64,000 bases of DNA from Paracoccaceae bacterium (GTDB lineage Bacteria > Pseudomonadota > Alphaproteobacteria > Rhodobacterales > Rhodobacteraceae). The position numbers and the translations under genes are program-made. The notes beneath the pieces were generated by a model. The model was not told where the DNA came from, ran no database searches, and was given only the letters and a program-made list of their open reading frames with translations. The stretch lies in contig JALHOL010000002.1 of NCBI GenBank assembly GCA_022843025.1, positions 186,001 to 250,000 of the forward strand. Reading direction: 5' to 3'. Each line of letters starts with the position of its first letter. The stretch's first letter is position 1. Of this stretch, positions 493-64,000 are shown piece by piece.

Positions 493-1187
493 GCGCCCTC
501 CAACATCCGCCGCGCGATCTCGGCCGCCTCGCGCAAGTGATCCTCCACCGCCTGCCGCGCCGCGCCCGCATCATTGGCGGCAATCGCCGCTGCGATGCGC
601 GCCATGCGCGCGCGGCCGGGCACCGCCCGGTCTGCCACAGTCAGCGTCAGCGCGCGCAGCCGGCTGATCCGCCCGTTCAGGCGCTGCACAATCTCCCACG
701 CGATGTCATGCCCGGCGGCGCGAAAGATCACCTCATAGAACTGCGTCGTCGCCTCAAAAACGGCATCTTCGGCGCCCGTCGCCGCCTCCAGCGCAGCCAG
801 CGCCGCCGCCAGATCGGCCTTCACCGCGGCATCTGCCACCACCGCGCAACCCGCCGCCGCCGATCCCTCCAGAAGCAGCCGGATGTCATAGATCTGCCGC
901 GCCTGCGCCCAGTCCATCCGCGCCACCACCGGCCCCCGGTTGGCCAGGCTTTCCACCAGCCCTTCCGCCTCCAGTATCCGGATCACCTCGCGGACGACCG
1001 ACCTGCTGACGCCCAGCTGATCGCACAGCGTCCGCTCCACCAACCGCGCGCCGGATGGAAAGCGCCCCGCGATGATCGCAGCCCGCATCCGGCCCAGCAC
1101 GATTTCGCGCAGGGTCTGCGGCATCTGGTCGATCCGCAATTCGGCGCGCAATTCCGCCTGCATTTCAGGATGTGCTGCCTGTTCCAT
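489..1187 (-). CDS. GntR family transcriptional regulator (FCD/FadR subfamily)
   Basis: The 232-residue protein has an N-terminal winged helix (about residues 20-90, with LREIVLGRMRAAIIAGRFPSG and LCDQLGVSRSVVREVIRILEAEGLV) and an all-helical FCD effector domain (about 95-225, with the YDIRLLLEGSAA and AALEAA segments). FCD regulators usually repress a neighbouring catabolic operon and release DNA on binding an organic acid. The gene is divergent from the oxidative operon starting at 1288. The 100-bp space between them holds a perfect palindrome of the type these regulators bind. Control of the 1288-6154 operon and of itself is inferred from this layout. Confidence 0.9.
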   Translation of the reverse strand: MEQAAHPEMQAELRAELRIDQMPQTLREIVLGRMRAAIIAGRFPSGARLVERTLCDQLGVSRSVVREVIRILEAEGLVESLANRGPVVARMDWAQARQIYDIRLLLEGSAAAGCAVVADAAVKADLAAALAALEAATGAEDAVFEATTQFYEVIFRAAGHDIAWEIVQRLNGRISRLRALTLTVADRAVPGRARMARIAAAIAANDAGAARQAVEDHLREAAEIARRMLEGA

Positions 1188-1245
1188 CGCCCCACCCTAG
1201 CGCCCGCGCCCCATCCGGGCAACGACTCATTGACATACGATCTTA

Positions 1246-1255
1246 TGGTATACCA
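1246..1255. promoter_or_regulatory. Candidate GntR operator (TGGTATACCA)
   Basis: A perfect 10-bp palindrome TGGTATACCA lies in the divergent space between the GntR gene and the catabolic operon. FCD-type GntR regulators typically bind short palindromes with a GTATAC-like core. A TTGACA hexamer at 1230-1235 sits just upstream, so bound regulator would cover the probable -10 region of the plus-strand promoter. Confidence 0.6.
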
Positions 1256-1287
1256 ACATACAACCAACAGCAAAGCCCGAGGTTCCG

Positions 1288-1890
1288 ATGCCCGCCCAGA
1301 TCCGCAAAACCCTTCTTCATGTCGAAACCACGCTGATCGAAGGCGGCCGCGCTGCGCCCAAACCGCTGAAGCTGATCGCGGCGGCGGCGGTCATCCGCAA
1401 CCCTTGGGCCGGGATGGGCTTTGTCGAAGACCTGAAACCCGCCATCCACGACGTGGCCCCCGAACTCGGCGCATTGCTGACCGGCATGATCCTTGATGCA
1501 GCAGGCGGTGGCGATGCCGTCGAAGGCTACGGCAAGGCCGCAGTCGTGGGGCTCGACGGCGAGGTGGAACACGCCTCCGCCCTGATCCACACCCTGCGCT
1601 TTGGCAACCACTACCGGCAGGCCGTGGGGGCCAAGACCTATCTCGCCTTCACCAACATCCGCGGCGGGGCCAACACGCCCGTCATGATCCCCTTGATGGA
1701 CAAGAATGACGAAGGCCGCCGCTCGCATTACCTGACCATCCATTTCGCCATCCCAGACGCACCCGCCGCCGATGAAATCGTCGTGGCCCTCGGCGCCTCC
1801 ATCGGGGGCCGCCCGCATCACCGCATCGGCGACCGATATCAAGACCTCAAGGATCTGGGCCATGATGTATCGAACCCTGCCTCTGTCTGA
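1288..1890 (+). CDS. Amino acid synthesis family protein (DUF1185)
   Basis: The protein has 200 residues with the opening IRKTLLHVETTLIEGG and the segment AAAAVIRNPWAGM, both characteristic of the DUF1185 / AA_synth family. Despite the family name, no reaction is established for it. Start choice is supported by GAGGT about 5 bases upstream of the ATG. It is the first gene of an operon; the next gene starts inside it (29-bp overlap). Association with a flavin-dependent monooxygenase, reductase and hydrolase suggests it acts on a ring-cleavage or amide intermediate; this is inference from neighbours. Confidence 0.85.
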   Translation: MPAQIRKTLLHVETTLIEGGRAAPKPLKLIAAAAVIRNPWAGMGFVEDLKPAIHDVAPELGALLTGMILDAAGGGDAVEGYGKAAVVGLDGEVEHASALIHTLRFGNHYRQAVGAKTYLAFTNIRGGANTPVMIPLMDKNDEGRRSHYLTIHFAIPDAPAADEIVVALGASIGGRPHHRIGDRYQDLKDLGHDVSNPASV

Positions 1891-2692
1891 CGGGGCCGCG
1901 GTCGGCCTCATCGAGGTCGGCCCCCCGGGAAATGGCGGCGAGCCGCTCCTGCTGATCCATGGCGTGGGCCTCAACGCCCGCGCCTGGGCCCCGCAAATCG
2001 CGGCGCTGGCCGCCACCACCCGGGTGTTTGCCGTGGATATGCCGGGCCATGGCCGCTCTGCCCCCCTGCCCCAAGGCGCGCGCCTGCCTGATTACGTCGA
2101 CTGGGCCGCGCGCGTGATCACTGCCCTTGGCGTGGGTGCGGTGAACGTCGCAGGCCATTCCATGGGCGCGCTGATCGCCACCGGGCTTGCCGCCGATTAT
2201 CCCGAACTCATCCGCCGCATCGCCATCCTGAACGCCGTCCACCGCCGCACGCCCGAGGCGCGCGCCGCCGTCACCGCCCGCGCCGATGCCATGGCCGCAG
2301 GGGAGTTTGACGCCACCGCCCCCCTCAAACGCTGGTTCACCGACGACGCGCAGGATGCCACCCCCCGCGCCCAAGTCGCCCGCTGGCTGGCCGAGGTCAG
2401 CCGCGACGGCTACGCCGCCGCCTACCGCGCCTTCGCCACCGGCGATGATATCTATGCCGACCGATGGGCCGCCATCACCTGCCCCGCCCTTGTCCTGACA
2501 GGCGATGGTGATCCGAACTCCACCCCCGACATGACCCGCCTGATGGCCGCCACCGCCCCGCGCGGCCGCGCCATCGTGATCGAAGGCCATCGTCACATGG
2601 TCAACCTCACCGCCCCCGACCGGGTGACAGCGGCACTCCGCGACTGGTTGCAAACGCCCCTGATGGCCGAAACCGAAGGGCTGCGCGCATGA
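1862..2692 (+). CDS. Alpha/beta-fold hydrolase
   Basis: The protein has 276 residues from the ATG at 1862; a longer frame runs back to 1772 but lies wholly inside the DUF1185 gene, and AAGGA precedes 1862. Classic alpha/beta hydrolase features are visible: the oxyanion segment LLLIHGVGLNARAW (about 29-42), the nucleophile elbow GHSMG with Ser100, the acid-bearing strand LVLTGDGDPNSTPD and the late GHRHMVN histidine. The lid region is helical. It probably hydrolyses an ester, amide or C-C bond in an intermediate made by the downstream monooxygenase, in the way RutD serves the Rut pathway. The substrate is unknown. Its end overlaps the flavin reductase start by 4 bases. Confidence 0.85.
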   Translation: MMYRTLPLSDGAAVGLIEVGPPGNGGEPLLLIHGVGLNARAWAPQIAALAATTRVFAVDMPGHGRSAPLPQGARLPDYVDWAARVITALGVGAVNVAGHSMGALIATGLAADYPELIRRIAILNAVHRRTPEARAAVTARADAMAAGEFDATAPLKRWFTDDAQDATPRAQVARWLAEVSRDGYAAAYRAFATGDDIYADRWAAITCPALVLTGDGDPNSTPDMTRLMAATAPRGRAIVIEGHRHMVNLTAPDRVTAALRDWLQTPLMAETEGLRA

Positions 2693-3633
2693 CCCAACCA
2701 CAAGACCCCCGCCGCGCCCTGCGCGATGCCTTTGGCACCTTCATGACCGGGGTCACTATCGTGACGGCACTGGATGACGCAGACCACCCCTTGGGCTTCA
2801 CCGCCAATTCCTTTGCCTCCGTCTCGCTCGACCCGCCGCTTCTGCTGGTGCAGATTGCCAAAACCTCCGCAAATTATCCGGCCTTCACCTCTGGTCGTGG
2901 CTTTGCCGTGAACATCCTTGCCGAAGGCCAGAAGGACATCTCCAACACCTTCGCCCGCCCCGCTGCCGACCGCTTCGCCGGGATCGACTGGCAACCCGGC
3001 CCGCACGGCGCACCGATCCTGCCCGATGTGGCCGCCTGGTTCGATTGCAGCACGCACCAGATCATCGACGCCGGTGATCACGCCATCCTTCTTGGCCGGA
3101 TTGAGGCGTTTCACGCCACCCCAGCACCCGGCCTTGGCTACTATCGCGGCACCTACTTCACCCCCGTCGCCACGCAGGCCACTGTCCCCACCGGGCCGGA
3201 TATCATCGTCTCAGCCATCCTCGAACGCGACGGGCAGGTGCTGCTGATCGACGATGGTTTTGGCGGCCTTACCCTTCCCACCGCCCGCGTGGGCCGCGAC
3301 GGCACCGCCGCCGCGCTGGCCGCGCTGATCGCGCAAAGCGGCATAGATGCCGCCCCCGGCCCGCTCTATTCCGTTTACGAAGACGTGGCCCGCGCCCAGC
3401 AGCACATTGCCTTTCGTTGCCCCGCCACGGCAGGCACACCCGCCAAAGGGGCCTTTGTCGACCTCTCCCCCGCCTCTTTCGCCGAAGTCACTGATCAGGC
3501 CCTGCGCACCATGCTGGAACGGCTGTCGGATGAATCGCGCATGGGCAATTACGGCATCTATTTCGGCAATCAGAATGCTGGCCGCATCGCGCTGGTCACA
3601 GAAGGCCCAGTCACGGAAGGAACGACCCCATGA
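2689..3633 (+). CDS. Flavin reductase fused to a NUDIX-like domain
   Basis: The first ~165 residues are a flavin reductase domain of the HpaC/RutF type: FGTFMTGVTIVTAL, GFTANSFASVSLDPPLLLVQI and a late GLGYYRGTYF. It would supply reduced FMN to the luciferase-like enzyme encoded next. About residues 170-300 (IIVSAILERDGQVLLIDDGFGGLTLPT...) resemble a NUDIX fold, but the catalytic NUDIX box (G-x5-E-x7-RE-x2-EE) is absent: the matching stretch reads TARVGRDGTAAALAALIAQSG without the glutamates. The extra domain may therefore bind a ligand or partner rather than hydrolyse a nucleotide. Start and stop overlap both neighbours by 4 bases, so reductase and oxygenase are made together. Confidence 0.85.
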   Translation: MTQPQDPRRALRDAFGTFMTGVTIVTALDDADHPLGFTANSFASVSLDPPLLLVQIAKTSANYPAFTSGRGFAVNILAEGQKDISNTFARPAADRFAGIDWQPGPHGAPILPDVAAWFDCSTHQIIDAGDHAILLGRIEAFHATPAPGLGYYRGTYFTPVATQATVPTGPDIIVSAILERDGQVLLIDDGFGGLTLPTARVGRDGTAAALAALIAQSGIDAAPGPLYSVYEDVARAQQHIAFRCPATAGTPAKGAFVDLSPASFAEVTDQALRTMLERLSDESRMGNYGIYFGNQNAGRIALVTEGPVTEGTTP

Positions 3634-56025: not shown

Positions 56026-56070
56026 TGGTGCCGCTGAAGGGACTCGAACCCCCGACCCCATCATTACGAA
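56026..56070 (-). tRNA. 3' remnant of tRNA-Thr(CGT), probable attachment site
   Basis: Read on the minus strand these 45 bases give, in order: anticodon loop TTCGTAA (anticodon CGT), anticodon 3' stem TGATG, variable loop GGGTC, T stem GGGGG, T loop TTCGAGT, T stem CCCTT, acceptor strand CAGCGGC, A73 and CCA. This is exactly positions 32 to 76 of a tRNA. The next bases upstream cannot form the 5' half of the anticodon stem beyond one pair, and no D arm or 5' acceptor (GCCGCTG) follows. It is therefore not a working gene but the 3' identity block typically left when an integrative element recombines into a tRNA gene. Confidence 0.88.
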
Positions 56071-56071
56071 T

Positions 56072-56471
56072 TGTTTTCCTGAGCAATATCAATAGATTGG
56101 AGTGCGACTGACAGCGTTGCAGCAACCATCACAACGCTTTGGCAGGCCTCGTCTTTCCCGAACTTGAGGCTTGCAGGCCGTTGGACACCGCCGGGCCGCA
56201 CCTCATGGCGCTTCCATACTATGGCCCTACAGATTTTCGTTTGCCCTACTAAAACTCGGGGGGGCAGACCGGCAGCTTCTGCTTGCTTTAGCTGGCTGGT
56301 CCCGCGCACCCCTACGCTGTCTTGCCCCCACCCCACCCCATCAACGGGCCGCTCGGAACCCAGCTAGCAGGCCGCCCTCCAGTAGACCCCTCTGTGGCGC
56401 ATCTGTGATCCTTCTTGAACTGGGCACCCCACCAAGGCACTGTTCCGTAACGGCACCGGGAGACCAACGCT
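56072..56471. other. Island left-end non-coding region
   Basis: These 400 bases between the tRNA remnant and the first island gene show no convincing gene. Open frames on both strands lack recognisable domains and ribosome sites. It may be decayed DNA plus the promoter for the DUF262 gene. Confidence 0.55.
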
Positions 56472-58364
56472 TTGCAGACAGACGATTTTTCTATTGAAAC
56501 CATTTTGGCAGAAAGCCGTCGCTTTATGGTTCCGCTGTATCAGCGCAAGTACCAGTGGGCTGATGATCGCCTTGCGCCCTTTTGGGATGATGTCGAAGCA
56601 AAGGCGACGGAAGTGCTCGAAGGCAACAGTCGCTTTCAGCACTACATGGGCGCGCTCATCCTCTCGCCCCTTGGTGAAGGGTCGCAGATTGGCATTACAC
56701 CGCGAATGCAGATCGTTGATGGTCAACAGCGCCTGACCACGTTTCAGCTTTTCCTAGCGGCACTTAGGGAAATCGCGAGAGAAAACGAACTGCCAGAAGT
56801 CATTGAGCAGGTGAATGGATACCTTTTCAACGTTCCCCGATCAAAAGACACTGACCCTCTCGTCAGGTTCAAGCTGACACCGACGCCCTCTGACCGCGAG
56901 GTCTTCCACGACATCATCGACAACCCTCACCGGCAGGTGCGGATCAAGTATAACCGGTACTACTGGGGCGGTGGGGTGCCAAAGAACACGCCCGTTCGTG
57001 CGCTGCGCGCCTATGTCTTATTCCTCAACTTCATCAGGCAATTCGTACTTACCGGTCCCACGGACGTACAGCGGGAGGAAGAAGACGGCGACGAACCGAA
57101 GTCTACCGAACGCGCACCCAAGGAACTGATCGAACAGCGCCTCGACGCTCTGCTACGTGCTGTCCTCGCACAGATGAAGCTGGTCGTTATCACGCTGGGA
57201 GAAGGCGATGACGCACAGGTCATCTTCCAGTCGTTGAATTCGCAGGGGCTACCGTTGCTGGCCATGGATCTTGTCCGCAACAACATTTTTCATCGTGCGG
57301 AAAGGCAAAGCGCCTCAACCGAGGAATTGTACAAGGAGCTGTGGGACCCATTCGACGATTACTGGTGGAAGGAGAACGCACCGAACGCGAGACCGATGCG
57401 ACCTCGGATCGACCATTTCTTGGCTCATGTTCTTGCCGCTGAAACCGGGGCCTCGATCGCCATGCGCGAGCTGTATTCGGAGTACCGAGCGTTTGCGACG
57501 CCACGCGGTAAACCGCGCTTTCCAGATGTCGAAGATGAACTCAAGTTGTTGCAGAGACACGCACCTATCTACGAAACGCTAGAAGGCAGAAAGAGCGCCA
57601 ATCCGACTATGGCATGGTTGGGTCGAAAGCTGGCAACGTGGCAAGTGACCACAGCTTACCCGGTGATGATGCAGGTGGCGTCAGCTGGTCTGCCGGAAGC
57701 CGAGCAGGACCGGATCGCACGGCTCATCTATTCCTATGTCGTACGCCGGGCGGTCTGTGAAATGACCAACAAGAACCTAAACAAGCTGTTTCAGGCAATT
57801 TCCCAGCGTTTCTATGAAGATACGCCTTCCTATGACTTGCTTCGCACTTTCTTCCTCAGCAGATCAGGAGAAAGCTCCCGCTTCCCAAACGACGACGAGT
57901 TCAAGCGCGCCATTCTGACAAAGCCTGTCTACCGAAACGCACCCGGCGAAAGGAACAAGGACATTCTGTGGGAGCTTGAACTTGCAAGTCGATCAAAGTT
58001 TTCAGAGACGGTGGCGAGACCTAGTGGCCTGTGGACTGAGCATGTTCTTCCCGTGTCATGGAACGAGGATTGGCCCTACGCAGAAGGCGACTTTGTGGCT
58101 AGGGGTTCTGCCGATCCAAGGGCTGATGCACGGAATGCACTGCTGCAAACGTTGGGAAATTTGACCCTCATCACTGGTGCCCTGAATGTTTCTTCGGGCA
58201 ACAAGGGGTTCATGCAGAAGCGCGAGAAGTTCGAGGAGCACACATCCTTGTTCTTGAACAAGTGGTTCACCAAACGAACAGCCTGGACCGAAGCAGATAT
58301 CAGAGAACGCGGCGAGCACCTTGCGGAGAAGGCTGTATTGATCTGGCCCAGCCCGGAAGTCTGA
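56472..58364 (+). CDS. DUF262 and DUF1524 (HNH-like) domain protein, GmrSD-type
   Basis: The 630-residue protein combines an N-terminal DUF262 domain with a C-terminal DUF1524 nuclease-like domain, the two parts of the GmrS/GmrD type IV restriction enzyme in one chain. DUF262 shows FMVPLYQRKYQW (~18-29), IVDGQQRLTTFQLFLAAL (~80-97, the DGQQR nucleotide motif) and VIFQSLNSQGLPLLAMDLVRNNIF. DUF1524 shows TEHVLPVSW (~523, His) and NALLQTLGNLTLITGALNVSSGNKGFMQKREKF (~555-588). GmrSD enzymes use NTP and cut modified phage DNA. The start is TTG, with GGGAGA 8 bases upstream; the next ATG (56526) would remove the conserved FSIETILAESRRF segment. First gene of the island. Confidence 0.9.
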   Translation: MQTDDFSIETILAESRRFMVPLYQRKYQWADDRLAPFWDDVEAKATEVLEGNSRFQHYMGALILSPLGEGSQIGITPRMQIVDGQQRLTTFQLFLAALREIARENELPEVIEQVNGYLFNVPRSKDTDPLVRFKLTPTPSDREVFHDIIDNPHRQVRIKYNRYYWGGGVPKNTPVRALRAYVLFLNFIRQFVLTGPTDVQREEEDGDEPKSTERAPKELIEQRLDALLRAVLAQMKLVVITLGEGDDAQVIFQSLNSQGLPLLAMDLVRNNIFHRAERQSASTEELYKELWDPFDDYWWKENAPNARPMRPRIDHFLAHVLAAETGASIAMRELYSEYRAFATPRGKPRFPDVEDELKLLQRHAPIYETLEGRKSANPTMAWLGRKLATWQVTTAYPVMMQVASAGLPEAEQDRIARLIYSYVVRRAVCEMTNKNLNKLFQAISQRFYEDTPSYDLLRTFFLSRSGESSRFPNDDEFKRAILTKPVYRNAPGERNKDILWELELASRSKFSETVARPSGLWTEHVLPVSWNEDWPYAEGDFVARGSADPRADARNALLQTLGNLTLITGALNVSSGNKGFMQKREKFEEHTSLFLNKWFTKRTAWTEADIRERGEHLAEKAVLIWPSPEV

Positions 58365-58390
58365 TCACTTCTAGAACGTAATCGAACGGT

Positions 58391-58419
58391 TAGAAGCGGG
58401 CCACAACAGCCCGCCTCTA
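58391..58419. terminator. Shared hairpin between converging genes
   Basis: GCGGGC (58396-58401) pairs with GCCCGC (58409-58414) around a 7-nt loop; TAGA and TCTA extend the stem after one mismatch. It lies between the DUF262 gene end and the end of the minus-strand small-protein pair. Confidence 0.65.
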
Positions 58420-58421
58420 GG

Positions 58422-58559
58422 TTACTTGCGCTTGCGGTCCGGTGCTTGGGTAAGCGCTGAAGCCGCCACGCTCTTTACGGCCTTCGGGGTCTTGGGGTTG
58501 GCCAACAGCTTGGCAGCCTTGGAAGCAACCCGGCGCGATGTGCTTTCGTTCTTTGCCAT
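58422..58559 (-). CDS. Small basic conserved protein (MAKNESTS family)
   Basis: This 45-residue protein begins MAKNESTSRRVASKAAKLL and ends ALTQAPDRKRK, with a net positive charge and one predicted amphipathic helix. The same opening and ending recur in small uncharacterised bacterial proteins that I recognise from accessory regions, which is why I call this short frame real. It starts 12 bases after the stop of the 61-residue gene on the same strand, with GGGGGATG just upstream. Function unknown; a nucleic-acid-binding or regulatory role would fit the charge. Confidence 0.75.
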   Translation of the reverse strand: MAKNESTSRRVASKAAKLLANPKTPKAVKSVAASALTQAPDRKRK

Positions 58560-58571
58560 CACACATCCCCC

Positions 58572-58757
58572 TTAGGCGTACTGGATCAGCGTCCAAGTCA
58601 CCGCTTTCCCGCCATAGGGCGGCATGCGGTTCCCTTTGGCGATGGGAGCGGTGGTGCTGGGGGTTCCCACGACCTTCCATACACCGCTTTCCGGGCAGGC
58701 CTCACCAGTCTTTGCTGTCGTGCCCAACGGGGCACGGGTCTTCGCTGCGTAGTTCAC
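58572..58757 (-). CDS. Small conserved hypothetical protein, 61 residues
   Basis: The protein begins with GTG (MNYAAKTRAPLGTTAKTGEACPESGVWKVVGTP) after a strong AAGGAG site and ends GGKAVTWTLIQYA. The pattern T-G-x-x-C-P-x-S-G-x-W followed by an aliphatic C-terminus resembles small SH3-like bacterial proteins that carry a single such motif. It is the first gene of a two-gene minus-strand unit with the MAKNESTS-type protein. Function unknown. Confidence 0.72.
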   Translation of the reverse strand: MNYAAKTRAPLGTTAKTGEACPESGVWKVVGTPSTTAPIAKGNRMPPYGGKAVTWTLIQYA

Positions 58758-58918
58758 GATAGGTCTCCTTATGCTCCGGCGTCCGTGTTTGGCTAGCCGG
58801 TTTCGTATAGATAGATCGAACGCTTCACTTCGTCAACCCATGTGGTATGATTGCGTATCACACGACCTTACGGCGCATCTCTCGGTGGTGCGCCGTTATG
58901 ATTCTGGGAGGAAGACTC

Positions 58919-59254
58919 ATGTCGTTTGCCACGAGGCTGAACCAGCTTAGGCTTCGCAAAGGTCAATCATTACAAGATGTTGCTGATGCCATAGGCGTAT
59001 CGAAGACCCATATTTGGGAGTTGGAGAAAGGGCGCAGCGACAACCCTTCGCTGGAAATGCTCACCAAGCTCGCGAACCACTTTGGAGTGACCATCCGAAG
59101 CTTGGTCGGTGAAGACCCCGAATCGTCTGAAGACGAAAAGCTAGCGATGATGTTCCGGCAGGCTGGTGAACTAGGGCCAAACGACCGCGCTGTTCTGGAA
59201 GACATGATACGTTCAATGGTTGCGAGGAATCAAAAGCGTGGCGCTGAAAATTGA
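58919..59254 (+). CDS. XRE family helix-turn-helix regulator
   Basis: From the ATG at 58919 (GGGAGGAAG upstream) the protein has 111 residues with an N-terminal Cro/C1 domain (RLNQLRLRKGQSLQDVADAIGVSKTHIWELEKGRSDNPSLEMLTKLANHFGVTIRSLVGE, about 5-64) and a short helical C-terminus. It overlaps the ImmA/IrrE protease gene. Such pairs control phage or mobile-element genes, and a similar XRE/DUF955 pair forms the toxin-antitoxin type defence system named RosmerTA. In these pairs the protease inactivates or is restrained by the regulator. Confidence 0.9.
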   Translation: MSFATRLNQLRLRKGQSLQDVADAIGVSKTHIWELEKGRSDNPSLEMLTKLANHFGVTIRSLVGEDPESSEDEKLAMMFRQAGELGPNDRAVLEDMIRSMVARNQKRGAEN

Positions 59255-60104
59255 AAGAATGGAAATTGACGATGCAGGCGCAAATCCAAAGAAACTGGCT
59301 GAGTCCATCGTCAAGCAGCTTCCACCGGGAACACAGGCAGTACCAGTGAGGGAGATCGCTAAGGCGATTGATATCTACGAAATCCGTGAAGCTGTGCTCG
59401 ATGGGCTTGAAGGCGGCCTAATCGTTCCTGAAAACAAGGCCAACGGAGCCATCTTGGTACATGCTGATCGGCATGAAACCCGAAAGCGCTACACAATCGC
59501 GCATGAGATTGGCCACTATGTGAACCCAAACCACCGCGCCAGTAGCCCGGAGGGCTTCAGATGCTCGCGCAAAGATATGGCGATCCATTCGGCACAGGCG
59601 GGCGACAGGCACGAAAAGATGGAGGCCGAAGCCAATCAGTTTGCGGCTGAACTGCTGATGCCCGACTCCTACGTGAAATCCTTCATGCGGCGCAGAGAAG
59701 GTGCCGATCTCGAGCATGTTATCACAATGGCCGAGTGGTTTGAGGTAAGCAAGGAGGCGGCAGCGCGTCGATACATTTCAAAGCTAGAAACACCTGCTGC
59801 AATCGTCTTTTCATGCAATGGAACTATCCGCTACATCAAGACCAATAACGGTTTCCCGCGCCTGTCGCTTTGGAATGGCGCTTCGATCCCAAGTAATTGT
59901 TTGTCGGCAACCAGCAGCGCACAGATTGGTCGAGTCACCGATACGGTTGAAACGCCCGGCCATCTTTGGTTGGAACGGTCTGCGGGGCTTTCCTTGGGTG
60001 AGCAAACCGTCGCGCAGAAGAATGGCTACCGCATGACGCTTTTGTCGGTGGAGAGCGTTGAAGCTGAGGAAACCGAATGGCAGGCCCCCAGCATTCGGCG
60101 ATAG
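59238..60104 (+). CDS. ImmA/IrrE family metallo-endopeptidase (DUF955)
   Basis: From GTG at 59238 (GAGG upstream; TTG 59220 or ATG 59259 are alternatives) the protein has 288 residues. The zinc-protease motif HEIGHY is clear in RYTIAHEIGHYVNPNH, and the third ligand region HEKMEAEANQFAAELLMP follows ~40 residues later. The C-terminal ~110 residues (from IVFSCNGTIRYIKTNNGFP) form an extra domain of unknown role. ImmA cleaves phage repressors and IrrE acts in stress response. Overlap with the XRE gene indicates a functional pair. Confidence 0.9.
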   Translation: MALKIERMEIDDAGANPKKLAESIVKQLPPGTQAVPVREIAKAIDIYEIREAVLDGLEGGLIVPENKANGAILVHADRHETRKRYTIAHEIGHYVNPNHRASSPEGFRCSRKDMAIHSAQAGDRHEKMEAEANQFAAELLMPDSYVKSFMRRREGADLEHVITMAEWFEVSKEAAARRYISKLETPAAIVFSCNGTIRYIKTNNGFPRLSLWNGASIPSNCLSATSSAQIGRVTDTVETPGHLWLERSAGLSLGEQTVAQKNGYRMTLLSVESVEAEETEWQAPSIRR

Positions 60105-60259
60105 CAAAGGACGCATCTAACTCTTTATCGACCGATTTTGCCGTATAGGCTCTCACACGCGCGCAGGATCAGGTGCTCTGGCAGCCGTTGGTCTTGTCGT
60201 ATCACAATTAACGTTCGCGGCTCCGCTCTGATAACGGGCCGGTAAAAACACCACGCCAC

Positions 60260-61585
60260 TTAGAGATCGAGTTCTTCAGCGGCGGCAAGCCACCCGGCGC
60301 GGCCTGCGCTGAATTGAGATGACTGGGATTCCGTAAATTCAAGGGATGCCGCCGGATTTTGAATGACACGGATGATGGGCCGGTAAGTGGCGGCATCTTC
60401 GACAACGACAAGCAGGAAGTTATCCCGGTGATGGTTCGCCGCCTCGAATTCTAGTGCGGTGAGGGTCACGCTCGCCCCCTGGCCGACGAAGCTCTTGACC
60501 TCGACCACGAATGCCTGCCCGTCTTTGCGCACCCATAGGTCAAACCCGTAACCGCGCCTCTGATTGTAGTAGACCACCGCCCAGCCCGCCGCTGCGAAGA
60601 CCTTGCCGATCAGCAGCTCGGAATCGGCTCCGCTATTGGTCTGCGGTGCAGCCGGAGGCGAAAGCAGTTCTTCCGGCGCTTCCGCGTCAGGGATTCGCAA
60701 AACAGTCGGGGTGCGCGGCACTGGCGCGGGTCTCGCTCGTGCGGGCCGCTGCCGTGGAAGCCTGGCACCTTCTTCCGCCTCAGCTTCTCCAATCGCGGGG
60801 CGGGCCAGGGCACGGGTCAGGAGAAGTTCGTTTTCAACCCGGACAGCGCGCGCGCCCAGAGAGAATAGGGAGAAGGTGTGGCGGGCCACATCCCGCCAGT
60901 TGTTGTAGGGCTTACGCGGATCGTTGCCCACGCCGTCCGGTATCCTGTCGTCTACCAGCTGCCGCAAGGCCTGCTTCTGCGGCGCTGCAAGAAGCCTAAA
61001 TGCCGCAATGCGCGCAACGGCAGGATCAATCTCGGCTTGCGTCCGGATGCGGGAGACGAACAGGTCAAACTCGTCAACATCCACATACCCGGCGGAGCGG
61101 GTCATCACCTCGAGGATGGCCTGATAAGGCCTTACGTTGAAGGCTGCATATTCATCCGCGCGTCCCTGCGAATACCACGGGACGCGGCAGAACCGGATGT
61201 CGGCAAGCTGATGCTCCAGAACCCCGACCGTATCGGTCCCAGTAGCGAGTTCTATTCCTGCCTGCGTCAGGCGGATATCCCTCCAACGGCGAGGATCGAT
61301 CCGTTCGATCAGGCGTAGTGGCGTATCCATTGCCAGAAAGTAGTGCCGGTTAATGACGACAGCCGGGTCCGGTGTGTCGATCTCAAGGTTGCGGGCAAGG
61401 TTTCGGTAATGGCCCGGCGTGAGCGTCAAGGCATGAGCGGCCCCCGCGTCATGCAGGTAGGAAGTGATCTGCTGTAGTCGGACGGCGTTCAGATGGACGC
61501 GGGTCAGGAGCCACCAGCCCCTGTCGCCCCGGTCTCCTTCGTCCAGCCGCGCAGTCAGCGCGTCTCTCAACTCTCCAAACGTCAC
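60260..61585 (-). CDS. PD-(D/E)XK-type nuclease, DUF3883-like C-terminus
   Basis: The 441-residue protein starts with GTG after GGGGGGATC. The N-terminal ~250 residues (WWLLTRVHLNAVRLQQITSYLHDAG, DIRFCRVPWYSQGRADEYAAFNVRPYQAILEVM) look helical with winged-helix-like parts and no family I recognise. A proline/arginine-rich linker (~270-315) follows. The C-terminal ~120 residues contain FAAAGWAVVYYNQRRGYGFDLWVRKDGQAFVVEVKSF, which has the D-x(n)-E-x-K nuclease core, and TALEFEAANHHRDNFLLVVVEDA as in DUF3883. Probably a restriction nuclease. It is divergent from the HNH gene with a shared 97-bp regulatory region. Confidence 0.75.
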   Translation of the reverse strand: MTFGELRDALTARLDEGDRGDRGWWLLTRVHLNAVRLQQITSYLHDAGAAHALTLTPGHYRNLARNLEIDTPDPAVVINRHYFLAMDTPLRLIERIDPRRWRDIRLTQAGIELATGTDTVGVLEHQLADIRFCRVPWYSQGRADEYAAFNVRPYQAILEVMTRSAGYVDVDEFDLFVSRIRTQAEIDPAVARIAAFRLLAAPQKQALRQLVDDRIPDGVGNDPRKPYNNWRDVARHTFSLFSLGARAVRVENELLLTRALARPAIGEAEAEEGARLPRQRPARARPAPVPRTPTVLRIPDAEAPEELLSPPAAPQTNSGADSELLIGKVFAAAGWAVVYYNQRRGYGFDLWVRKDGQAFVVEVKSFVGQGASVTLTALEFEAANHHRDNFLLVVVEDAATYRPIIRVIQNPAASLEFTESQSSQFSAGRAGWLAAAEELDL

Positions 61586-61633
61586 GATCCCCCCACAAGG
61601 CCGAGAAAGCTCCTACCAGATTCTTTTTCTTGA

Positions 61634-61671
61634 ATTTTCCCACAAAGTTTGACTCCCTGGGCGGGGAAAAT
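61634..61671. promoter_or_regulatory. Inverted repeat in the nuclease/HNH divergent promoter
   Basis: ATTTTCCC (61634-61641) and GGGAAAAT (61664-61671) are perfect inverted copies 22 bp apart, flanking a TTGACT hexamer (61649-61654) that could be a -35 element for the HNH gene. Spacing of 30 bp between starts puts them on one helix face. Confidence 0.5.
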
Positions 61672-61682
61672 GAAGATGTAAC

Positions 61683-62717
61683 ATGGCCCGTCGGCAAAGC
61701 TATACCAGAGTCGTGCGCTCCAATTTTCAGAATCCTGACCATGTCAAGGGCATGGGAGACAAGGTCTTTCGGGGATTCCAGTGCCTGAACAAGGATTGCA
61801 CGAATTTTGTATTCGTGCGCGAAGACGGCCTAGGCGCGGATTTCTCAATCAACTGCGATTCGTGCGGCTTCGTACACGCCGCCGGTGAAACAGCCAGCCT
61901 CTATGACTATGAACTATTTCGCGACGATAAGAAAATCGAGGATGGTTCGTTTCAGATATTGCATGACGATCACATCAACGACGCGCAACGCTACAAGTAC
62001 TGCATCGTTTGCGGCGCGCTGAAGCCCCTTGAACAATTCGATCGCCACAGCGCGCGTGCGAGCGGGCGTCAGGGGGAGTGCTCGCTGTGCAAGCAGGTTT
62101 ACAACAGCATCAAGAACCAGACGCGCCTCGTCGAGCAACACCGCGAAGCCAGCCAGAAACGCCGCCTCTATACCCAGTTTGAGCAACCGTCGAAGCTGGA
62201 TATCAGGGCGATTTATGACCGTTTCGGTTGCCGGTGCTTCAAGTGCGGCGTCGATCTCGCCGGCGACCTAGAGGCCGGGGCATTGCAGAAGCTAGGTAAT
62301 CTCGACCACACGCTCCCGGTTTTCTACCTCTGGCCGCTCACCACCAATAACGCAACCTTGCTCTGCCGCGATCACAACGGGGAAAAGGCCGAGAAGTGGC
62401 CAGGAGCTTATTACGAGGACGCGGAACTAAGACGCCTGTCGGCGCTCACCGGTATCGAATATCGGCTGATGGCGGACGCGCCAAATTTCAATCCGGAGGC
62501 GCTGGAATGGCTGGGCAAGCCGGAATTTGTCGAAAGCCTATTCGAGAAATTCGCGCGCTACCCGCATGAATTGTTGCGGCTGCGCAACCGCATCCTGGCT
62601 ACAACCGGATTCGATTTTCTCGACAGCTCCGCCCGGATTTCCCCCGACTGGCGCAGGAACGCGGACGCCCTGAGGGGCGCTATCGCCGCCGAAACAGAAG
62701 ATACTGATGGTGCGTGA
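61683..62717 (+). CDS. HNH endonuclease with several zinc-binding CxxC pairs
   Basis: The 344-residue protein has CxxC-type knuckles: CLNKDC (~34) and CDSCG (~59), CIVCG (~107) and CSLCK (~133), then CRCFKCG (~178). The HNH centre follows as LDHTLPVFYLWPLTTNNATLLCRDHNGEK (~208-236), with the H, N and H of the motif and its last zinc cysteine. Such proteins are type II restriction nucleases or Cas9-like HNH modules. It reads towards the methyltransferase gene and the two coding regions overlap by 38 bases at their 3' ends. Pairing with that methyltransferase as its protective partner is likely but inferred. Confidence 0.85.
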   Translation: MARRQSYTRVVRSNFQNPDHVKGMGDKVFRGFQCLNKDCTNFVFVREDGLGADFSINCDSCGFVHAAGETASLYDYELFRDDKKIEDGSFQILHDDHINDAQRYKYCIVCGALKPLEQFDRHSARASGRQGECSLCKQVYNSIKNQTRLVEQHREASQKRRLYTQFEQPSKLDIRAIYDRFGCRCFKCGVDLAGDLEAGALQKLGNLDHTLPVFYLWPLTTNNATLLCRDHNGEKAEKWPGAYYEDAELRRLSALTGIEYRLMADAPNFNPEALEWLGKPEFVESLFEKFARYPHELLRLRNRILATTGFDFLDSSARISPDWRRNADALRGAIAAETEDTDGA

Positions 62718-63981
62718 CCGTTCCTTTGTCGCGTATGCCGTGGCTTTCACAATGCTCGACGCTCTCGGCGAATGAATCGATAAGATCGAGATGCGCGCTG
62801 CCTACTGCTGTGAGGGCGGCTGCCATATCGCATTTCGCGCTCTTGCCCAGATGAACGGCAAAGTATCCGCCCGGCTTCAATCGCGCAGCACCCTGGGAAA
62901 ATATGGAATCGTAGATTGCGAAACTACGCTTCTGTCTTTCATCGACGAACGTTGCCGGTTTTTCGGCAAAGTCACAGGCCTCCCAGCCCGCGAACCATAA
63001 GCGCATCCAATTGGCGGTATGAAACCGCGTGCTGTCAAAGAAAGGCGGCGACGTAATGATGGCGTCAAGATCGGCAACTTCGTCCGGCCATGCAGCCGTG
63101 GCATCCTGAAAGTACGACTTGCCCTGCGGCAGGTCTTCGCCCGCTGCTTCGCGTAGCGCGCGATCCACCTTTTTCTGCACCCGGTCGATGACTCCGCGAT
63201 ACTCAAATTCCCCGGTCGGCGCGAAGGGCGTGATCGGGTGGGAACGGCGGCTCAGGGCATAAGGGCGGTTACCATGAAGCACATGCAGGAGAGCGGAAAA
63301 AACCAGCGCCTCCGATCCGGTCAAAGGCGGATTCTTGATGAAGAAATCCCGTGCCGCGACGATTTCTTTAAGCGTTTCGGGATGAAAATAGGACGGCAAG
63401 GTACCGTTGAAACGAATGCGGTCCAGGGCGGCGAGATCAACAGCCTTGGTACGCCGCTTGCCGATATGGAGCCGGAGCTCCTCTATGACAGAATTTACAG
63501 AAACGCGATTGACCGGTTCGAGTTTCGCACGGGATATGGCGATGGCTGCGGGGCTGATATCAAAGCCGAAAGCGGTGTGCTCTTGCAGGCGAGCCTCGAA
63601 GGGAATTGATCCCACGCCGGAGAACGGGTCGAGAAGACGCCCCCCCTGATCGGGCAACAGCGCGTGCGTCAACGTGTGCGCGATCGATGCTTTCAGCTTG
63701 CCTTGGTAGGAACACAGGGAATGCCAGGGATGGCCCCAATTCCTTTTCGCCATGACGCCGCGCTGATGGGGAAGCGTCTCTCGAAACAGGTTCCACTTTT
63801 CGATGCGGTGGTCAGCTTTCGCCCGCGCGCTTTTGGTTGCGCGGGCGCTCCCGCTCGTCTTGACTGTCCTGGTCGCAAGGGGACGAAACACCTGAAGGGT
63901 TTGCGAAAGCTTGCTGCCGCCCCGCGACTGGCGTTCCCGCAACACGACCAGTTCGGAACGGCTGAACCCGTTTTCAGCCAT
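62680..63981 (-). CDS. DNA methyltransferase (N4-cytosine/N6-adenine type)
   Basis: The visible 433 residues contain motif I LLDPFSGVGSIPFEA (SAM binding, ~115-129) and motif IV ITSPPFF (~310), in the order I then IV. The S-P-P-F form is commonest in N4-cytosine enzymes, though N6-adenine enzymes of this layout exist. WGHPWHSLCSYQGKLKASIAHTL before motif I is the usual 'Y-x-G-K' lead-in. The ATG at 63981 is only 19 bases from the window edge and the frame stays open upstream (DIICDL precedes it), so the true start may lie outside. Likely protects host DNA against the neighbouring nucleases. Confidence 0.88.
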   Translation of the reverse strand: MAENGFSRSELVVLRERQSRGGSKLSQTLQVFRPLATRTVKTSGSARATKSARAKADHRIEKWNLFRETLPHQRGVMAKRNWGHPWHSLCSYQGKLKASIAHTLTHALLPDQGGRLLDPFSGVGSIPFEARLQEHTAFGFDISPAAIAISRAKLEPVNRVSVNSVIEELRLHIGKRRTKAVDLAALDRIRFNGTLPSYFHPETLKEIVAARDFFIKNPPLTGSEALVFSALLHVLHGNRPYALSRRSHPITPFAPTGEFEYRGVIDRVQKKVDRALREAAGEDLPQGKSYFQDATAAWPDEVADLDAIITSPPFFDSTRFHTANWMRLWFAGWEACDFAEKPATFVDERQKRSFAIYDSIFSQGAARLKPGGYFAVHLGKSAKCDMAAALTAVGSAHLDLIDSFAESVEHCESHGIRDKGTVTHHQYLLFRRR

Positions 63982-64000
63982 AAGATCGCAGATAATGTCG

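Follow-up and report, generated by a model that had tools for sequence, protein, structure and literature searches.

Whole-tRNA replacement by an integrating element was described as tRNA-dependent lysogeny by Guerrero-Bustamante and Hatfull (2024; PMC10865867) for temperate phages of Actinobacteria, together with one cited Lactobacillus prophage. In the sections of that paper that set out the system, a tyrosine integrase with an arm-binding domain acts on an attB within a host tRNA gene, the common core measures 8-17 bp (their Table 2), and the host tRNA is not reconstructed, a tRNA of the same isotype being carried by the element; the frequency of whole-tRNA replacement elsewhere and its relation to the canonical mode are left open there. 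The island analysed here agrees with the phages in its integrase, its target, the missing reconstruction and the carried isotype, and has a core of 8 bp. It differs from them in being a 15.5-kb island with defence-like cargo and no phage structural or packaging gene among the 10 larger element proteins scanned, and in the placement of its tRNA, which is separated from the core by 97 bp, adjoins arm-like repeats and is aligned with the host upstream region. As the two defining sequence features of tRNA-dependent lysogeny are present but no phage is recognisable, we regard the island as a variant of that system and not as a strict member.

A second relevant case comes from another alphaproteobacterium, Sinorhizobium meliloti, in which tRNA-Leu(UAG) has been replaced by a prophage-borne copy (PMC11476347). 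There, as in our island, the host tRNA was inactivated by integration and an element-borne gene serves as the replacement, whereas the S. meliloti elements are prophages. The same study, in its passages on these genes, reports that three islands and a prophage carry tRNA-Thr(GGT), with no claim that it replaces a split gene, and states that there is no evidence for the use of element-borne tRNA genes as new integration sites (PMC11476347). Such use, a speculation concerning a plasmid in the pertinent part of the phage paper (PMC10865867), is seen as a layout in one relative of our strain (G017), which, as far as layout can tell, is evidence of this kind. Canonical tDNA islands, in the part of the Islander description that defines them (PMC4383910), likewise combine a tyrosine integrase, a tRNA target, crossover at the anticodon loop and a 3' fragment at the far end; their attP carries the tRNA fragment that restores the target, whereas here the element brings the gene whole and the two host halves persist. 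In the open-access literature we found no description of non-phage islands with whole-tRNA replacement in the attachment region.

A host tRNA-Thr(CGT) gene split by an island

The window, the whole stretch of 64,000 nucleotides that was analysed, is G000:C2:186001-250000, where G000 denotes the genome of the analysed strain; features beyond its right edge are given on L003 (C2:241000-260000), in which a position equals the window position minus 54999. A 45-bp block at window positions 56026-56070 reads on the minus strand TTCGTAATGATGGGGTCGGGGGTTCGAGTCCCTTCAGCGGCACCA, the part of tRNA-Thr(CGT) that extends from the anticodon loop as far as the encoded CCA, and its identification as the 3' half of that gene in a sequence-only reading was confirmed on this strand. 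ARAGORN found no whole tRNA in the 64-kb window, where the block occurs once at up to 3 mismatches (mean of 0.00 in 100 shuffles). At the same tolerance it occurs twice in the genome, at C2:242026-242070 and C2:257443-257487, both times with 0 mismatches. The second copy had been predicted to lie to the right within an intact tRNA-Thr(CGT), and an exact copy is indeed found there at 15.4 kb; the tyrosine integrase expected on that side sits in the island between the block and the intact gene, the position that it has in canonical tDNA islands. A repeat search gave a direct repeat of 46 bp, and also revealed a third tRNA piece outside the intact gene, 48 nt long (L003 16607-16654) and 90% like the tRNA 5' part, whose exact match starts at the anticodon loop (L003 16617). 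This 5' half, 97 bp beyond the intact tRNA, is cut at the same anticodon loop as the 3' half. In a canonical island the host 5' half is inside the intact gene, so that no separate 5' piece would be expected.

The empty site is preserved whole, without the island, in G061, a genome labelled as the same species. The left flank (L003 1-1072) aligns to L209 of G061 at 22-1094 (98.2%) and the right flank (L003 16617-19001) at 1087-3471 (97.4%); the two alignments overlap by 8 bp, TTACGAAT, which is all that the two outer junctions have in common, and an intact tRNA-Thr(CGT) (L209 1049-1124) spans the joint. With adjacent flanks and this overlap, the element measures 15,552 bp with one core copy. 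G061 is also the relative that had been anticipated, in which the left flank, here LysR and the 146 bp after it, runs directly into an intact tRNA, and together with the split halves it bears out the view of the block as an insertion junction at the anticodon loop. On these alignments the host gene is split at that loop, its 3' half having gone to the left end of the element and its 5' half to the right end (Table 1).

Table 1. Features of the island and its junctions (window positions unless marked L003).
Feature	Position	Strand	Evidence or remark
Host tRNA-Thr(CGT) 3' half, including encoded CCA, displaced to island left end	56026..56063	-	Sequence, same-species empty site, second genome copy
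8-bp common core TTACGAAT (anticodon loop + 1 bp), presumed crossover region	56064..56071	.	Overlap of flank alignments on G061, L209 1087-1094
Element, left part	56072..64000	.	Absent from G061 empty site; runs on to G000:C2:257615 (L003 16616)
Putative integrase arm-type sites, left end	56224..56251	.	GCCCTAC 56224-56230, GCCCTACTA 56243-56251; like those beside element tRNA
GmrSD-type restriction-like protein, defence-like	56472..58364	+	PF03235 2.1e-31, PF07510 7.9e-24; PADLOC Orf5 6.3e-89, mREase_IV 1.9e-80
CapH-like HTH regulator	58847..59254	+	PADLOC capH 1.3e-25
CapP-like M78 metallopeptidase	59220..60104	+	PF06114 2e-14; PADLOC capP 7.2e-52
NOV_C/Mrr-like protein	60260..61585	-	PF13020 1.8e-9, PF04471 3.6e-4
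Endonuclease VII-like protein	61683..62717	+	phrog_1035 2.6e-14
Double-domain DNA methyltransferase, 899 aa (L003 7681-10380), C-terminal part in window	62680..63999	-	PF01170, PF01555
Tyrosine integrase	L003 10930-12105	+	PF00589 3.4e-15, Arm-DNA-bind_3 1.3e-8
AlpA-like protein (weak)	L003 12474-12815	+	HTH_17 5.1e-4, below curated cut-off; phrog_66 8.7e-8
VapE-like helicase	L003 12664-15102	+	Protein-family match
Full tRNA-Thr(CGT), inside element	L003 16444-16519	-	Contains the second genome copy of the block; empty-site alignment
Arm-like repeats beside element tRNA	L003 16536-16555	.	Motif
Host tRNA-Thr(CGT) 5' half, outside element	L003 16617-16654	-	Repeat search, empty-site alignment

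Our reading, which we hold at a probability of about 0.93, is that the block is one of two remnants of a host tRNA-Thr(CGT) split by a 15.55-kb island that carries a whole replacement tRNA. Canonical regeneration, our starting hypothesis, would instead assemble the intact tRNA from the host 5' half plus a 3' half supplied by attP, which leaves the additional 5' half as an unrelated older relic. A tyrosine integrase, a tRNA and a 3' fragment around an island are the classic signature of that mode as described for Islander (PMC4383910); the right flank of the empty site, however, joins the extra 5' half and not the intact tRNA, as judged from G061 and eight relatives. With a 5' half outside the intact tRNA, and at the host flank according to G061, canonical regeneration was rejected, and we consider it very improbable. 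What stands of the standard fragment-type integration assumed in the sequence-only reading is the 3' block, the island, the integrase and the intact tRNA; what does not is the origin of the intact gene, which is wholly element-borne, with the host 5' half separate and farther outwards.

Seventeen same-genus genomes were compared. The right flank is joined directly to an intact tRNA-Thr(CGT) in eight of them (L009-L015, L017), whereas in G000 it follows the extra 5' half; besides these eight with an empty right side, two hold the same kind of element (G005, G017) and one a different element (G007), the tally leaving G001, G004, G009, G011, G015 and G016 unplaced. Left-flank matches in the other compared relatives lie away from this tRNA, so it is G061 alone that tests the left boundary. 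Two of these genomes deserve a separate remark. In G011 (L018) an intact tRNA-Thr(CGT) near the right-flank gene has a short spacer-like stretch upstream, which may be what is left of an element since lost. The element of G007 (L040 1099-2697, L041 9016-9060) occupies the same tRNA, with the host 5' and 3' halves far apart, and has its own tRNA-Thr(CGT), 89.6% alike, about 1.5 kb inside one end.

The element tRNA of G000 is identical to the G061 host tRNA at 76/76 positions, so that the distinction between element and host gene in G000 depends on the empty site and the relatives and not on sequence alone; the orphan 5' half differs from both at 1 position. The element tRNA has the orientation of the host gene and lies 135 bp further downstream. 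An Rfam tRNA search of G000 gave 41 matches, without Tyr or Ile tRNAs and hence an incomplete census, and ARAGORN on all 41 places recognised one CGT gene (that of the element), one Thr(TGT) and one Thr(GGT). The single CGT copy is backed independently by the genome-wide search with the 45-bp pattern.

Motifs related to the repeats beside the element tRNA occur near both ends of the G000 element (L003 1225, 1244, 16536 and 16547). The spacer between core and tRNA is 97 bp long, and a double repeat, TAGTAGGGCCATAGTAGGGC or a variant, is present in most aligned spacers of 94-100 bp; we infer that these repeats are putative arm-type sites of the integrase. The 11 aligned sequences, split and empty alike, share CTACACA and TGCTAATAG on the upstream side of the host 5' half, and it is possible that the element tRNA is transcribed from the host promoter through the 5' half.

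The integrase of G000 is of the P4 type. Phage satellites of Gram-negative bacteria (PICI- and P4-like) bring int, alpA and a replication gene together within a small island. Ours resembles them in its P4-type integrase and VapE-like replication protein, both clear matches, and in its size of about 15 kb, and it may resemble them in an AlpA-like protein, a weak match. It is unlike them in that neither packaging nor capsid genes were recognised in G000, whereas a terminase large subunit is encoded by one of the viral contigs discussed below (L167). The scan of island proteins (G000, G005, G017) gave no match to a relaxase or capsid family. At 58847-61585 a CapH/CapP-like regulator and protease pair stands beside the NOV_C/Mrr-like protein; the scan of the element proteins gave no match to a cyclase.

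Related elements in other hosts

The layout recurs in G005 around different cargo: 3' half, element, full tRNA, a 97-bp spacer (85% alike) and 5' half. Its integrase and VapE types are the same as in G000, and its cargo comprises a PAPS-reductase-like protein, an AAA_23 protein and a protein with DndE and HerA/TrwB-like matches, a set that we take to resemble Dnd systems. Between its element tRNA and its own host halves there are 2 changes, which compensate each other as a pair in the acceptor stem. Three viral contigs (L167, L169, L172) hold related elements with the same tRNA and near-identical spacers between different host halves, which are 11-12 kb apart; L167 is 96-98% like L172 over the three longest shared blocks and 77-87% like L169 over the four longest. 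L167 encodes a resolvase and a DUF5906 protein besides the terminase large subunit, and given this terminase the device seems to be shared by elements that may be packaged. The tRNA of the three viral contigs is also found, with a spacer near-identical to theirs, on a Thauera contig (L132). The related elements of 11-12 kb, with one shared tRNA in different hosts, are possibly phage satellites.

Stem pairing allows the origin of the halves to be compared, counting G-T as a pair over 12 stem positions, with the halves taken either together or each with the element tRNA. The element tRNA is itself paired at 12/12 positions in G000, G005, G017 and L170 and at 11/12 in L167, L169 and L172. The halves pair mutually at 12/12 positions in L167 (8 and 7 when mixed with the element tRNA) and in L170 (8 and 9), which again contradicts a canonical origin of the intact gene. 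The test discriminates weakly in G005 (12/12; 11 and 11 when mixed), L169 (11/12; 11 and 9) and L172 (11/12; 10 and 9), and it does not discriminate for G000 and the inner split of G017, because there the element and the host have the same or almost the same sequence.

G017 shows a nested layout, with two 3' halves (C16:217435, C16:237033), one full tRNA and two spacers, between which a 5' half is located. Such a layout would result if one element had inserted into the tRNA of another. Both stretches have an integrase homolog, together with a replication protein that is Prim-Pol in the inner element and VapE in the outer. By position, each also has an EVE-HNH protein, accompanied by type I restriction parts and a GT4-conflict protein in the inner element and by a ResIII protein in the outer. 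The outermost 5' half has decayed beyond recognition. As both 3' halves (L038 5436-5490, L039 6034-6090) are followed by ATCCTTCTC, as after an element-borne tRNA, a third, older nested element is possible.

Two further loci stand apart. In G022 (L042 13600-13900) the 5' half beside an intact full tRNA looks, by eye, badly decayed, so that precise excision would not restore the host gene. In G704 (L243 14492-17749) two half-plus-full modules lie 3 kb apart, one with tRNA-Thr(GGT) and one with tRNA-Thr(CGT), with an integrase homolog between them; this suggests a composite, or an element changing its target.

Spread of the module and its link to the integrase

A pattern of half, spacer and half with a Thr anticodon matched at least 118 stretches in genome contigs and 6 in viral contigs. 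Among the matches listed, 125 instances comprise 103 with one full tRNA, 21 with two and 1 with none; the single full tRNA is downstream in 102 of the 103, the exception being L145 with an upstream gene, and all instances with two different anticodons had two full tRNAs. A strict test, requiring that the half be present and that less than 45% identity to the tRNA 3' half follow it, was passed by at least 92 loci (73 CGT, 11 GGT, 8 TGT; 87 from genomes and 5 from viral contigs), and half and full gene share the anticodon in all 92 among the matches listed. The 92 include L074, L118 and L132 with 14 to 17 mismatches in the half, that of L132 being partly N, that of L118 looking like an alignment shift and L074 being doubtful. 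The strict count omits 10 of 102: L050 and L058, in which the half is missing as the stretch begins there, and L054, L055, L062, L108, L141, L155, L160 and L164, with 45% identity or more after the half. Judged by eye, three of these (L054, L108, L155) resemble true members and four (L055, L062, L141, L160) a T-loop variant. In these last four loci, all from Clostridia, the 5' fragment upstream of the full tRNA-Thr reaches the T-loop before it breaks, which looks like the same strategy with a T-loop crossover.

Hosts of the module, among the matches listed, are mostly Alphaproteobacteria from several orders, with a few Beta- and Gammaproteobacteria and Firmicutes. In even draws, with G000 included and by pattern before the strict test, the signature turned up in 18 of the 295 family genomes and in 3 of the 385 class genomes drawn, one of these three (G117) looking like two full tRNAs. 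A reversed control pattern gave no match among the rows listed in the signature scans.

These counts also bear on whether half, spacer and full tRNA might have arisen by local tandem duplication or recombination, independently of the island. The tRNA pieces are only 97 bp apart in G000, and two full tRNAs are seen in 21 of the 125 instances among the matches listed, as such an origin would have it. Yet the spacer has its start precisely at the anticodon loop, does not occur at the empty site of G061, recurs at 85% likeness in G005 and contains TAGGGC in 56 of the 92 strict loci among the matches listed. On the spacer and the empty site we rejected a tandem duplication for the G000 locus, where it is scarcely credible.

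The split by an island carrying its own tRNA is further linked to a particular kind of integrase. A tblastn search confined to the short loci located such a homolog in 13 of the 102. With this result in view, forty of the 87 strict genome loci were hand-picked, mostly for long contigs, and 24 of these 40 genomes have a homolog of the G000 integrase (at least 46% identity) on the contig of the module, on the element side, 3.5 to 18 kb from the tRNA and reading toward it. Some of the 24 are damaged: the homolog is in two pieces in G084 and broken in G085, and one stop codon lies inside the matched stretch in G062, G080, G092, G093 and G094. In 16 of the 40 no homolog was found on the contig of the module at E 1e-20 or better, except in G079, with a 29% match 281 kb from the module. 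Seen from the integrase, close homologs (E 1e-95 or better, at least 58% identity) occur in 11 of 295 genomes of the family, and 10 of the 11 are beside the module, 8 by pattern and those of G538 and G704, whose modules are half-plus-full, on reading the region. The eleventh, in G551, has no tRNA in 19.9 kb at a contig end, and the G551 module lies on a different contig; none of the 11 showed a canonical layout. The two linkage counts are not independent, as at least five genomes are common to both sets (G484, G532, G567, G618 and G636 are G065, G082, G092, G087 and G080, with the same coordinates). The recurrence of the module beside related integrases is a further point against canonical regeneration.

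Proposed mechanism and role of the carried tRNA

In the mechanism that we propose, the island entered the host tRNA-Thr(CGT) at the anticodon loop, presumably via the 8-bp core, the cut probably being made by its own integrase. Since island and target share only 8 bp, the tRNA cannot be regenerated from a fragment; the island instead brings a whole tRNA-Thr(CGT) just inside its right end, beside the putative arm sites. The gene has the orientation of the host gene and lies downstream of the conserved upstream region of the host. It would then be expressed, perhaps from the host promoter, and be needed by the cell, and decay of the orphan host halves would make the element hard to lose.

The need for the carried tRNA is a presumed part of this scheme. 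G000 also has a tRNA-Thr(TGT) gene. A tRNA-Thr(TGT) might read ACG by wobble. With the same structure, Thr(TGT) could therefore cover ACG, and the carried gene could act mainly as a landing site or as a decoy, for example against tRNA-cutting defences; the TGT isoacceptor of G000, the defence-like cargo of G000, G005 and G017 and the apparent landing in an element tRNA in G017 would fit such a role. Against it, the stems of the element tRNA are intact (11-12 of 12 positions) and in G005 carry a compensatory change, the host 5' half is decayed in G022 (by eye) and so is the outer one in G017, and the anticodon agreement between half and full gene extends to all 92 strict loci among the matches listed. 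We consider a dispensable tRNA unlikely and retain the view that the carried gene would be needed.

At somewhat better than even odds, we would extend the split-and-replacement reading from this locus to a clade of P4-type integrases in Alphaproteobacteria, with relatives elsewhere, that would use whole-gene replacement instead of fragment regeneration. Placed inside the attachment region, the carried tRNA would be at once a payload and the next landing site, in line with the host promoter. Decay of the orphans would keep precise excision from restoring the gene and so lock in the island as bearer of the sole copy, and the host tRNA-Thr would have been replaced repeatedly by mobile alleles.

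Whole-tRNA replacement, described in 2024 for actinobacteriophages, here goes with an integrase clade on defence-carrying islands. The Islander algorithm, in the description available (PMC4383910), would probably take the element tRNA as the host gene and place one boundary about 135 bp short, and, if the inferred parts of our scheme hold, tools that map islands by the fragment rule may set their ends wrongly. As G000 has the island and G061, of the same species, lacks it, this pair allows a direct test of the idea. On the same condition, islands would gain a way to become hard to lose, and alleles brought in by elements would replace the tRNAs of their hosts.
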